The notes below the pieces were generated by a model. That model was given only the letters and a program-made list of their open reading frames with translations, ran no database searches and was not told the DNA's origin. The position numbers were made by a program, and so were the translations under genes. From Spiroplasma melliferum (GTDB lineage: Bacteria; Bacillota_I; Bacilli_A; Mycoplasmatales; Mycoplasmataceae), in the NCBI GenBank assembly GCA_005222125.1, contig CP029202.1:248001-312000 (forward strand): 64,000 bases of DNA, written 5' to 3'. Shown here piece after piece: positions 51,058-63,036 of this stretch (its first letter is position 1; every line of letters begins with the position of its first letter).

Positions 51058-52734
51058 ATGTCATATTTAGATAATTTAAATTTATGAAAAAATGCTAAAA
51101 ATTTAGATCCAACGTTAGCCACTGAATTTCAACAAATGTCTGAAGCAGATTTAATTGCTGCTTTTTCAGATGATTTAGAATTTGGAACCGCTGGATTACG
51201 AGGTTTATTAGGACCAGGAACCGGAAAAATGAATTTATATACAATTCGGAGAGCAACATTGGCTTTTATGCAGTATTTAAAAACAATTTATTCTGAGACA
51301 GATTTAAAAACAAAAGGAATCGTAATTGGACATGATAACCGTCATTTTTCAGCTGAGTTTGCGCAAGAAGTAGCAAATATTTTTGCTAGTAATAATATTA
51401 AAGCAATTTTATTTGCGAATAATGACCTTCGGCCAACACCAATGGTTTCATATACCATTCGTAAAATAAAAGCGGCAGCGGGTGTTATTATTACGGCAAG
51501 TCATAATTCACGTGAATATAATGGTTATAAAATTTATGATCATAATGGTTCACAATTTTTGCCAGTTGCGACCGATATTATTGGTGAAAATTACTTAAAA
51601 ATTAAAGAAGAAGTTTTTACTTTAACTTTAAACCCAAATTCAACTTTAATTACATATGTTGCAAAAGAGGTTGAGGATAATTATGTTAGTGATGTTAAAG
51701 CAATGCAGTTTTATCCAAATCAAAAACGTAATATTAAGATTGTTTTTTCTAATTTGCACGGAACAAGTAAAGAATGAACACCACGAATTTTAGAAGAATG
51801 TGGTTATGATGTCACGATTGTAGAAGAGCAATTTGACAATGACCCTAATTTTACTTTTGCACCTAATCCAAATCCAGAATTAACAGAATGTTATGATTTA
51901 GCATTAAAATATGCGAAAAAAGTTAATGCTGACGTTATCATTTTAAATGACCCTGATGCTGATCGGTTAGGAATTGGTGTTAAAATCAAGGACAATGAGT
52001 ATTATTTAATGACTGGTAATGAAACAGCTCCGGTATTAATTGAATATTTGTTTTCTCATTATCAACGTCAAAAAACATTACCTAAGAATGGGGTTATGTA
52101 TAATACCTTTGTTACTGGTAATTTATCAGATAAAGTTGCTGAAGGTTATGGTGTTCAAGTTATTAAAACATTAACTGGTTTTAAATGAATTGGTGATCAA
52201 ATGAGCAAAGCATCAGCTAAAGGATTACAATTTTTATTTGGATTTGAAGAAGCATATGGTTATGTTTTAAAAGACATTACTCGTGATAAAGATGGAATTC
52301 AATCGTCATTAGTCTTAGCAGAAGCTTGCTGATATTATCATAATCAAGGAAAAACATTATATGATGTTTTAGTTGAACAATATAATAAATTTGGTTATTT
52401 TTATTGTAAAACAGTTAATTTAGTTCGTGATGGAATTGATGGTAAAAAAGTTATTAATAATATGTTAAAAAAATTGCGACAAGAAACAATTACTAGTTTG
52501 AATAAAATTAAATGTATTAAGAAAGAAGATTATTTGAATGGCTTGTATGAAATGCCAGGACAAGACTTATTAAAGTTTTATTTTGCAGATGGTAGTTGAT
52601 TTGCAGTTCGGGCAAGTGGAACAGAACCAAAAATAAAATTCTATTTTGTTTGTGTTGATAAAACAAATGAAGAAGCAAAAAGAAAAATGGAAGCAATGTA
52701 CCAAGAATTAGAAACTAATTATTTAAAAGAATAA
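51058..52734 (+). CDS. pgcA: phosphoglucomutase/phosphomannomutase
   Basis: Alpha-D-phosphohexomutase interconverting sugar 1- and 6-phosphates. The 558-residue product has the N-terminal EFGTAGLRG, the catalytic Ser in ITASHNSREYNGYK (about 144-157), the Mg loop NDPDADRLG (about 297-305), the sugar-binding GFEEAYGYV, and the C-terminal phosphate loop RASGTEPKIKFY. Long form as in B. subtilis PgcA. Six TGA Trp codons. AAAGGAGAAT precedes the start. Probable roles: glycolipid or polysaccharide precursors, or salvage of sugar phosphates made by DeoD. Confidence 0.93.
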
Positions 52735-52775: not shown

Positions 52776-54632
52776 ATGGCAAAAATTATTTTTGAAGCTG
52801 ATGATAATCGTAAAGGAATTGTTGATAAAATTTTTGTTACAAATAAACAAGTTGTCCAAAAGGGCGATAAGATTGCTAACATTATTACACAAAATAAGGT
52901 TTATGAAATCAAAGCACCAATTACTGGTGAGGTGTTAAATCTTATTGTTTATGAAAATAAAGTTATTAATAGTGGTGATGTTTTATTAGATTTATTGCCA
53001 TTTGAGCCAACCCTTAATGAACAGCATAATCATTTTGAGCAACCCTATAATACTGTTTCCTTTAATGGTTCTGGAAAATATAATATGCAAAATCGACCAC
53101 CAATTGATGTTAAAAAGTCAGAAACAGAAATTTTTCGAGAAGAGTTAATTGAAACATTATTGGCACGTGAAGTAGCTGGTGAAAATCTTCAAGATGATTT
53201 TGATGATTCAATTGAAATTGATTTACCAGAAGAAAATATAGAACAAGATTCAACGCCATTTTTTAGCCAGGATAATAATTCAAAGACATTTCCTTTTAAA
53301 GATAAAGTTGAAAATGTTCTTGAAAATATTCCTAGTGAAGAGAATATTGAAACATTACAAAAAGATTTGGGTGATTTAAAAGAAGATTTGGCAATTGTTA
53401 AAGATGATTTAGCAACAATGACAATTGAAGAAGAAATTATTGAAGATCTTGAAAATTTAGAACGGGATTTAGCATTTACAGCAGAAATGGCCGAGAAAAA
53501 ACAAGTTGATGATAAAATATCAGAGCCATTAATTAATCATCACCCCTTTGATGTAAAAAAAGAATGCAAGCCAGAAAGTAATACAAAAGAAGAATTAAAA
53601 AGTAATTTTGCTTCAATTCAAAATAATGTTGATGATTCAAAAATGCAACCTATTATAAATTTAGAAAAAGATAAATTAGTAGATGATGAGTCGAAGGGAC
53701 ATCATGGAGAACAGTCAAAGTCGCATTCAACGGTGCATTCGTCTGCTTCGTCGCATTTAGAGAAGCATCAACCAGTGGATGATAAGTCAAAGGGACATCA
53801 TGGAGAACAGTCAAAGTCGCATTCAACGGTGCATTCGTCTGCTCCAACTTATCTTAAAAAACATAAGACAGAAGATGTAACATCAAGAGAACATGCTGCT
53901 TTTTCAGGCCATAAAATCAAAGAAAACACGCAGAGTTTGCAAGTTGACAAAGTTAAATTAAATCAAGAAGCAATTATTCGTGCAAAAGAAATTATGGAAA
54001 GTAAAAAAAATATTGCTCATGGTTTCATTGATGTTGAAGTTGATGTTAGCGAATTAGTTAGTTTATTATCAATTATGCGTGAAGCATATTCACAAAATGA
54101 TATTGAATTAACATTATTACCTTTTTATGTTAAAGCAGTCTATGATGGATTAAAAAAATTCCCTATTTTAAATGCATCTTTTATTAGTCAGGAAAAAGCA
54201 ATTTTATTAAAATGATTTTATAATATTGCTTTTAGTGTTGATAGTGATACTGCAGTGAAAATGCCAGTTTTATATAATTTAAAAAATGTTTCAATTAAAG
54301 AAATTGCTTCAAAGGTAACAAAATTAATAGGAAAAAGTATTAATAATGAATTAAAAGAAAAAGACTATCAAGATGCTTCATTTTCAATTGTAAATTATGG
54401 TGAATATGGAATAACACGGGGAACATTTACAATTCCAGATGATAATGTTGCTGGAATTGCAATGGGTATTATTTTTAAAAAACCTGTTGTTGTTGAAAAA
54501 AATGATATTGCAATTCGTGATATTATGGTAATTACATTAGGGTATAATGAAGCTGTAATTGATATTACCGAAGCAAGTAAATTTGTTCATTATGTTGCAT
54601 ATTTATTATCAAATCCAGGACTTTTATTATAA
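52776..54632 (+). CDS. E2-like acyltransferase homologue with lipoyl-type domain and degenerate active site
   Basis: 618 residues in three parts. Residues 1-78 are a lipoyl/biotinyl-type domain; Lys41 in ITQNKVYEIKAP sits at the modification position. Residues about 80-395 are a highly charged linker with a probable coiled coil (about 190-245) and two His/Ser-rich repeats. Residues about 396-618 resemble the E2 catalytic domain (LLPFYVKAVYDGLKKFPIL; SIVNYGEYGITRGTFTIPDD), but the catalytic motif DHRLIDG of the true E2 is replaced by GYNEAVIDI, without the essential His. Compared with pdhC at 60356 it has no clear E1/E3-binding domain. Intact frame; the start is preceded by GGGGG. A scaffold or regulator of lipoylated enzymes is conceivable. 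Confidence 0.8.
53682..53848 (+). repeat. two tandem 96-base repeats inside the E2-like gene
   Basis: The repeat starts at 53682 and again at 53778. About 70 bases of each unit are nearly identical, then the copies diverge. They encode ESKGHHGEQSKSHSTVHSSA and KSKGHHGEQSKSHSTVHSSA. Codons here (many TCG, GTG, ACG) are richer in G and C than the neighbouring sequence. Confidence 0.9.
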
Positions 54633-54676: not shown

Positions 54677-55618
54677 ATGAATATTAAAGATTTAACAAAA
54701 GAAGTTAATAATGTAGAATTAATTGTGATTGCTGATAAGGTAACCCAAGGGACAGCTTCCAATGGAAGCACTTATTTATCAATAACCTTGAAAGACCGTA
54801 CTGGAACAATTGAAGCAAGGTTATGAGATGCTCGTCCAGCTGATATTGAGACTTGAATTAAAGGTAATTGTTACAAAGTAAATATTAATATTATTGAATA
54901 TCGTAAAGTTTTACAAGCAAAAATTAATAGTTATGATATTATTGATAATGCCAATATTAATTTAGATGATTTTATTGAAGTTGCGCCACTTCCAGCAGAT
55001 GCAATGTATGATGAAATTATTACAACAGTGAAAAAAATGAAAACAACTGAATATCGTGAAATTATGACTTTAATTTTAGCAAAATATGGTGAGCAATTTA
55101 AAATTTGACCAGCTGCCATTCGTAATCATCACGAAATTAAATCAGGTTTAATTTGACATAGTTTAACTATGCTACAAATGGCAAAAAATGTTGTCAATGT
55201 TTATCATGATCGTTTAATTGATTCGGAATTATTATATTGTGGTGTTATTTTACATGATTTAGGAAAAGTTATTGAAATTACAAGTGGAGCGACAAATGAT
55301 TTTTCATTTGAAGGAAAATTACTTGGGCATATTTCAATTATGGCAAATGAATTAAATCATCTTGCCCAAAGTAATAATTTAAATTCAGAAAAAATTGTTT
55401 TGTTAGAACATATGATTTTAGCTAGTCATGGCCGTTTGGAATATGGTTCACCTGTTGAACCACATTTATTAGAAGCAGAAATTTTGTCATTTTTAGATAA
55501 TTTGGATGCACGAATTTACCGCATTGATAAAGAGTTAGAAAAAACATTGCTTAATGAACAAACACAACGGTTATTATCTGTTGAAGGTCGTTGATTTTTA
55601 AAACATTTTGAAAAATAA
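54677..55618 (+). CDS. yhaM: 3'-5' exoribonuclease YhaM
   Basis: 313 residues: an N-terminal OB-fold (about 1-95, LSITLKDRTGTIEARLWDAR) and an HD-type domain with HHEIKSGLIWHSLTM, VILHDLGKVIE (HD at about 192) and ILASHGRLEYGSPV, the arrangement of B. subtilis YhaM (CBF1 family), which degrades single-stranded RNA. Trp residues are TGA. TTAGGAGGGG precedes the start. Length matches the family (about 314). Confidence 0.93.
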
Positions 55619-57219: not shown

Positions 57220-58206
57220 ATGATTTGTTTTAAAAATTCTTCTACAGATGTTTACTTTAATTTGGCTTTAGACGAGTATCTTTTAAAAAGTGATATTAAA
57301 GACAATATTTTCTTTTTGTGAAAAAATTTTAATACAATTGTTATTGGTCAAAATCAAAATACAATTGAAGAAATTAATTTACAAGCGGTTGAAGCTGATA
57401 AGGTGAATGTTGCACGGCGAATAACAGGTGGTGGGGCTGTTTATCAAGATGATGGTAATTTATGTTTTTCCATTATTGTTAATAAAGATGATAAAATAGC
57501 AAAAAATTATGAAAGTATTTTACAACCTATTATTAATGTTTTGCAAAAACTTGGTTTAAATGCTAAATTTGCTGGTAAAAATGATATTGAAATTGATGGT
57601 AAAAAAATCTCTGGTAATGCACAAATAAAATATAAAAATCGTTTGCTACACCATGGAACATTTTTATTTGATGTTGATTTAAGCAAAATGCAAAAATACT
57701 TAAATGTTAGTCAGGATAAAATTATTTCAAAAGGAATTAAATCAATTCCAGCACGAGTAACTAATATTCGTCCATTATTAGTAAATGATATTACAATTGA
57801 TGAATTTATGCTGTTTATTACTAATGAGTTTTTGGCACAAGGAACGCCAGTGTTAGATTTACCACCAGATATTATTGCTGCAGTTAATAAATTAGCTGAT
57901 GAAAAATATCGAACATGGGAATGAAACTTTGGTAATTCACCTGAATTTAGTTATCAGAATAAAATTCGATATGAAGGAAAAGGTACTGTTGATGTGCGTT
58001 TAAATGTTACTGAAGGAAAGATTACAAAGATTAAATTTTTTGGTGATTTTTTAGGTTCTGGTGGAACAGAACCACTTGAAACTCTTTTAACAGGTTGTGA
58101 ATATAATCTGGATAAAATTAAAACAAAATTATTAGAAGTGAATATTAAAGATATTTTTGGTGAAAAATTTGAAACACAAGAAGTTTTAGATGTTATTTTT
58201 ACTTAA
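57220..58206 (+). CDS. lplA: lipoate-protein ligase A
   Basis: Activates free lipoate with ATP and attaches it to lipoyl domains. The 328-residue product has NLALDEYLL, VARRITGGGAVYQDDGNLCF (the RRXTGGGAV(F/Y)HD lipoate motif), the Lys in KKISGNAQIK, and the C-terminal accessory domain (from about 245). TGA Trp in FLWKNFN and EWNFGNS. It starts five bases after nox and precedes pdhA by 37 bases, so its substrate is most likely PdhC and perhaps the E2-like protein. Confidence 0.95.

Positions 58207-60355: not shown

Positions 60356-63036
<2,681 letters not shown>

Follow-up and report, generated by a model that had tools for sequence, protein, structure and literature searches.

The window analysed here, a 64,000-nucleotide stretch of Spiroplasma melliferum DNA, carries a gene that resembles the E2 subunit of the PDH complex and in which the active-site motif has been replaced. 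This raises the question of what such a protein does, and whether it belongs to the PDH complex encoded nearby.

Domain order and lost functional centres

The gene, referred to as class A, was found to be an uninterrupted frame of 618 residues, as a sequence-only reading of the locus had claimed, and intact copies number 39 across as many genomes, the window copy included. Its features are as follows.

52776-54632, + strand: pseudo-E2 gene (class A), 618 residues in genetic code 4, intact frame with one TGA read as Trp
52776-53003, + strand: N-terminal lipoyl/biotinyl-type barrel-sandwich domain, residues 1-76 (AlphaFold2, Foldseek, dN/dS)
52893-52898, + strand: Asn40, aligned with the lipoyl-lysine of E2, and Lys41 at +1 (alignments)
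53004-53951, + strand: acidic low-complexity linker, residues 77-392 (~315 residues), net charge -32
53952-54629, + strand: E2-type catalytic-domain fold without active site, residues 393-618 (PF00198, E=1.3e-42, over the gathering cut-off)
54540-54566, + strand: degenerate active-site motif GYNEAVIDI, residues 589-597, with Glu592 at the place of the catalytic His

Class A shares with bacterial PdhC (PF00198/PF00364/PF02817) the order of lipoyl-type domain, linker and catalytic fold, and it shares 32% identity over 205 residues with the PdhC of the window. It differs from PdhC in the loss of all three functional centres, in a linker several times longer and in forming a separate clade. Residues 1-77 were modelled by AlphaFold2 at a pLDDT of about 70-85 and matched lipoyl/biotinyl domains in Foldseek at TM 0.7-0.86. 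Against PF00364 the N-terminal domain of the window copy scored 18.3 bits, under the cut-off of 22.1 that orthologues exceed. The lipoyl-type domain previously assigned to this protein is thus supported as a fold, by the model and by the PF00364 scores of the orthologues, but is weak by sequence in the window copy. The class A N-terminus has the barrel-sandwich fold of the biotin/lipoyl attachment domains (PF00364), but its hairpin tip, unlike theirs, carries no attachment lysine.

The charged linker that had been described was borne out, with helices predicted at low confidence at about residues 175-247. In the window copy a His/Ser-rich block of about 33 residues is present in duplicate within 53004-53951. 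In G002, G005 and G011 (proteins of 751-762 residues) the linker is longer and abounds in His/Ser stretches of a similar kind, and the class A proteins of G003, G012 and G013 are 32-36 residues shorter.

E2 cores in the PDB matched the class A protein with E-values down to 1.1e-28 and a four-sequence profile down to 1.4e-57. When the C-terminal domain was modelled alone its Foldseek matches were E2 cores, at a mean pLDDT of 48.6 for a single chain and hence at low confidence, and full-length AlphaFold2 modelling with five sequences was confident for the N-terminal domain only. The structure prediction proposed with the sequence-only reading therefore gave a fairly confident answer for the lipoyl/biotinyl fold and, for the E2 core, a resemblance at low pLDDT. 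No match to the E3-binding domain (PF02817) was detected in the class A protein at E<=1, as compared to 6.9e-12 for the true PdhC.

Alignment of the active site revealed that DHRxxDG is replaced by Asn591 for Asp, Glu592 for His, Ala593 for Arg and Ile597 for the final Gly. The catalytic histidine is present in 0 of 39 class A orthologues, as opposed to 11 of 11 true E2s, and the suggestion that it might always be lost in homologues therefore proved correct; the E2-type catalytic domain without catalytic histidine, and with it an E2-derived protein without transferase centre, are confirmed. The column of the usual catalytic Ser/Thr, which precedes the His column, holds Y, F, V, I, W or L in 36 of the 39 orthologues. 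A new enzymatic activity in a remodelled pocket of the E2 fold is very improbable. Purifying selection on the C-terminal domain would agree with it, as would the glutamate that occupies the His column in all 13 sequences of the window's genus (g1). Elsewhere in the family, however, this column holds E, Q, N, S, C, A, K, L or T with no new invariant polar cluster, and in the more distant orthologues the domain has drifted almost past recognition.

Lys41 had been placed in the modification position of the N-terminal domain and the lipoyl lysine taken as apparently conserved. In an ungapped alignment, however, the lipoyl-lysine of PdhC (ETDKVNTEI) falls opposite Asn40, with Lys41 one residue beyond. 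The lipoyl-lysine column holds N, S, L, V, M, G, F, Q or R and is Lys in none of the 39 orthologues. At the +1 column Glu is found in 22, Lys in 12, Arg in 2, Asp in 2 and Ser in 1, such that 25 of the 39 orthologues have neither Lys nor Arg there; the two with Arg are g1 species. The conserved residues are instead KGI(V/I) at 13-16 and, in almost every orthologue, Thr38-Gln39 of the turn. One mixed MAFFT alignment misplaced the lipoyl domain of PdhC and was left out of these results. The homologue comparison proposed for Lys41 thus found the residue unconserved, which goes against the lipoylation part of the earlier reading. In the lipoyl domain of B. stearothermophilus, extra lysines at neighbouring places (D41K, A43K) are unmodified and a shift of the lysine by one place (D41K/K42A) abolishes lipoylation, according to a review (PMC6270654, section 4.2) that cites Wallis & Perham 1994.

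Relation to the PDH complex and LplA

The following two genes of the window bear on a link between class A and lipoate-dependent metabolism.

57220-58206, + strand: lplA, lipoate-protein ligase (domain search), not required for retention of the pseudo-E2
60356-61639, + strand: pdhC, the true E2 (PF00198 at E=4.8e-90, PF00364 and PF02817)

The true pdhC was confirmed to keep the normal motif, DHRLIDG. In the window the pdh operon begins 3.6 kb downstream of class A. The class A gene is nevertheless INDEPENDENCE from PDH: it is intact in G001, G006, G012 and G013, in all of which PDH is lost or broken. No PF00198 match to PdhC was found in G001, G006, G008 and G013, and the gene is interrupted by a stop in G012. 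E1-alpha is absent from G001, G008, G012 and G013 and truncated in G006, the weak residual matches being other proteins. Of these genomes, only G006 has an intact lplA; the ligase gene is broken in G001 and absent from G008, G012 and G013. Retention of an intact class A in four species whose PDH is lost or broken, three of them also without intact LplA, means that the protein is not an obligate PDH subunit, nor a carrier that depends on LplA. The link to the neighbouring complex implied by the sequence-only reading is not supported.

The closest known kind of protein is E3BP/protein X (PDHX) of the mammalian and fungal PDH complexes. Class A shares with it an E2-derived inactive C-terminal domain, an N-terminal lipoyl-type domain and flexible linkers, and human E3BP is found among its sequence and fold matches. 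E3BP, however, has working carrier domains and recruits E3, whereas class A has neither a lipoyl-lysine nor an E3-binding domain, is bacterial and persists in four species without a PDH complex. That class A serves the PDH complex as an E3BP-like structural subunit or as a regulator is accordingly considered quite unlikely. Its homology to E2, the pdh operon next to it in the window and nearby in several g1 species, and the precedent of E3BP as a catalytically inactive E2 (PMC7494870) would fit such a role. The missing domain and lysine and the persistence just described count against it, as do the distance of class A from pdhC in G004 and G010 and the fact that its deeply conserved neighbour is yhaM rather than pdh.

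The class A protein had also been proposed to be lipoylated, perhaps by LplA. A lipoylated carrier with Lys41 modified by the neighbouring ligase could draw on the lysine lying one residue off the modification site in the 12 orthologues, the window copy among them, and on lplA itself, which in the window lies 2.6 kb downstream and which G006 keeps intact without PDH. We nonetheless give this very little credence on the account of the +1 position of Lys41, at which the positional mutants reported in the cited review are unlipoylated, the Glu or Arg found there in other orthologues, including the two g1 species, and the intact class A proteins of G001, G012 and G013, whose lplA is missing or broken. 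The best reading of the alignments is that the class A protein is not lipoylated. G006 has kept lplA despite a truncated pdhA and the loss of pdhB, pdhC and pdhD, which reflects either a recent loss or another lipoylated protein.

Family, selection and a proposed scaffold

Class A orthologues were found in 13 of the 14 genomes of g1, the copy in G008 being broken, and in genera g6, g7, g8, g11 and g12 of the same Mollicutes family. In a class-wide sample of 395 genomes strong matches (E<1e-28) were confined to this one family. A contig search returned only two orthologues, both from S. phoeniceum, P40 (NZ_CP031088.1) and PmM2021_Spiro (CP110830.1), along with a weak irrelevant match, and the viral contigs scanned yielded no additional E2 sequence. 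Class A (support 100/99), true PdhC (98/95) and class C, a second pseudo-E2 described below (99/97), form separate clades, with long branches in class A.

Selection was evaluated from Nei-Gojobori dN/dS for pairs taken from the window copy, for which the near-identical G003 is uninformative. Against most g1 relatives dN/dS was 0.05-0.2 for the N-terminal domain and 0.16-0.23 for the C-terminal domain, rising to 0.31 and 0.37, respectively, against the most distant, G007. The folded domains are thus under purifying selection, and the linker, at 0.33-0.84, evolves fast. A decaying paralogue is ruled out by the 39 intact frames and by domain dN/dS values well below 1. In the PDH-less group the domain values increased about threefold, to 0.3-0.6, with each pair contributing between one and four dozen changes. 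As dN/dS of the control genes pgm and yhaM increased to a similar extent in most of these pairs, no special relaxation of class A after PDH loss is shown.

Since class A is kept intact in helical spiroplasmas even without PDH, it probably serves an independent structural function. The explanation we favour, at a probability of about one half, is a non-catalytic, non-lipoylated scaffold that derives from a duplicated E2 and acts outside the PDH complex. The E2 subunit would have been duplicated and turned into a pseudoenzyme that neither catalyses nor carries lipoate. Its C-terminal E2 fold most likely self-assembles into a trimer or larger, and the assembled core would display long flexible acidic arms, each tipped by a barrel-sandwich head that presumably serves as a binding module; the whole protein may act as a multivalent tether or scaffold. 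The drift of the C-terminal domain in distant orthologues fits a function driven by the head as well as it fits a core scaffold. Out of the lipoylated scaffold, regulator or carrier proposed by the sequence-only reading, the scaffold is still the best guess and the lipoylation is dropped.

Inactive E2s are already known as parts of PDH in the form of E3BP. If the favoured explanation is true, a bacterial inactive E2 without lipoyl lysine, E3-binding domain or active site that outlives PDH would be a case of an E2 scaffold fully exapted. Databases probably annotate class A as an acetyltransferase, an annotation that would mislead metabolic models of spiroplasmas.

Conserved yhaM pair, MreB pattern and a second pseudo-E2

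The genes that flank class A in the window are as follows.

51058-52734, + strand: phosphoglucomutase/phosphomannomutase-type gene (PF02878-PF02880), 41 bp upstream of class A and probably co-transcribed with it
54677-55618, + strand: yhaM-like gene, OB-fold and HD domain (PF01966, 5.3e-9), 44 bp downstream of class A

In 35 of the 39 genomes, spanning six genera, yhaM lies directly 3' of class A on the same strand with a gap of 9-126 bp, while the genes on the other side of class A vary. About 1.3 kb, probably an insertion element, separates the two genes in G013, and no yhaM was found in G050 and G052 within the stretch fetched beside class A. The conserved pair suggests that class A may act in nucleic-acid metabolism, as a partner of the YhaM-like nuclease or as its anchor. 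This is, however, rather doubtful as yhaM is present in 19 of 20 tested genomes without class A, and so does not need it, the gene order may simply be old, and a domain search found no nucleic-acid-binding domain in the class A protein. In five genomes of a separate family, f9, the mutase gene overlaps yhaM with nothing in between, an empty site. In several g11 genomes a trmFO-like gene is separated from class A by a gene for an uncharacterised protein of about 235-242 residues (L061:3550-4257, L062:5450-6157, L063:5319-6047).

The occurrence of class A was also compared with that of the cytoskeletal proteins. MreB (E<1e-100) and the Fibril protein are found in g1, g6, g7, g8, g10, g11 and g12 and not in g2, g3, g4, g5 and g9, the distribution of fib being almost equal to that of MreB. 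Class A is present in 39 of 42 MreB-positive and in 0 of 18 MreB-negative genomes of the family. The exceptions are G008, in which class A is broken beside MreB and Fib, and G022 and G029; both g10 genomes are without the gene. The broken copy in G008 and the absence from g10 imply that class A is dispensable for having MreB. Moreover, most of the joint loss of class A and MreB traces to a single event in the Entomoplasma-type clade, in which loss of mreB and fib came with many other gene losses (PMC6117150). As the two losses share few events, a role of class A in the cell architecture of helical, MreB-bearing spiroplasmas is a lead only.

A second pseudo-E2, class C, was observed outside the window at G000:C3:74670-77675 (L031:1671-4676). 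It encodes 1001 residues, with a lipoyl-like head devoid of the lysine and DQRIIDA in place of DHRxxDG. In the copies aligned class C shares with class A a lipoyl-like N-terminal domain without Lys, and it further shares a long low-complexity middle, the E2 fold and the loss of the His; it differs in its separate clade, its retained DQRIIDA, its locus and its occurrence in f9. The His column holds Gln in 37 of 38 sequences. Every one of the 42 MreB-positive genomes of the family has class C, a count assigned by score band with 38 read as sequences. Part of f9 has it as well: the gene is intact in G078, which has four MreB genes, and in G067, whose MreB is decaying; G088 and G083 have broken copies and G073 has none. 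No gene hinting at function is shared by the class C neighbourhoods.

A special case of the scaffold would place class A in the helical cytoskeleton or cell-shape machinery, that is the MreB/Fib ribbon or the tip structure. It would be favoured by the presence of class A in most MreB-positive and in no MreB-negative genomes of the family, by the closely matching distribution of fib, and by class C, which tracks MreB and decays in parallel with it in a separate family. Against this stand the few independent losses, the broken class A of G008 and the decay of the true PdhC in the same f9 genomes. In addition, the 16 proteins of the Triton-insoluble structure of S. eriocheiris in Table 1 of PMC5289999 include none annotated as E2-like. 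In the searched portions of papers on the Spiroplasma cytoskeleton, proteomes and gene loss, the class A protein is unmentioned. On balance this role is regarded as unlikely.

The Fibril protein is derived from a nucleosidase. We likewise hold it to be a tentative and rather improbable idea that two duplicated dead E2s were recruited as structural parts of helical cell architecture beside MreB and the Fibril protein. If true, they would be a further case of metabolic enzymes turned to the cytoskeleton in the same organism, and class A would widen the choice of genes worth testing in this type of motility, for which little is known of the accessory parts. In G083 and G088, which belong to one f9 genus, the MreB genes and class C are decaying in parallel and fragments of them remain.
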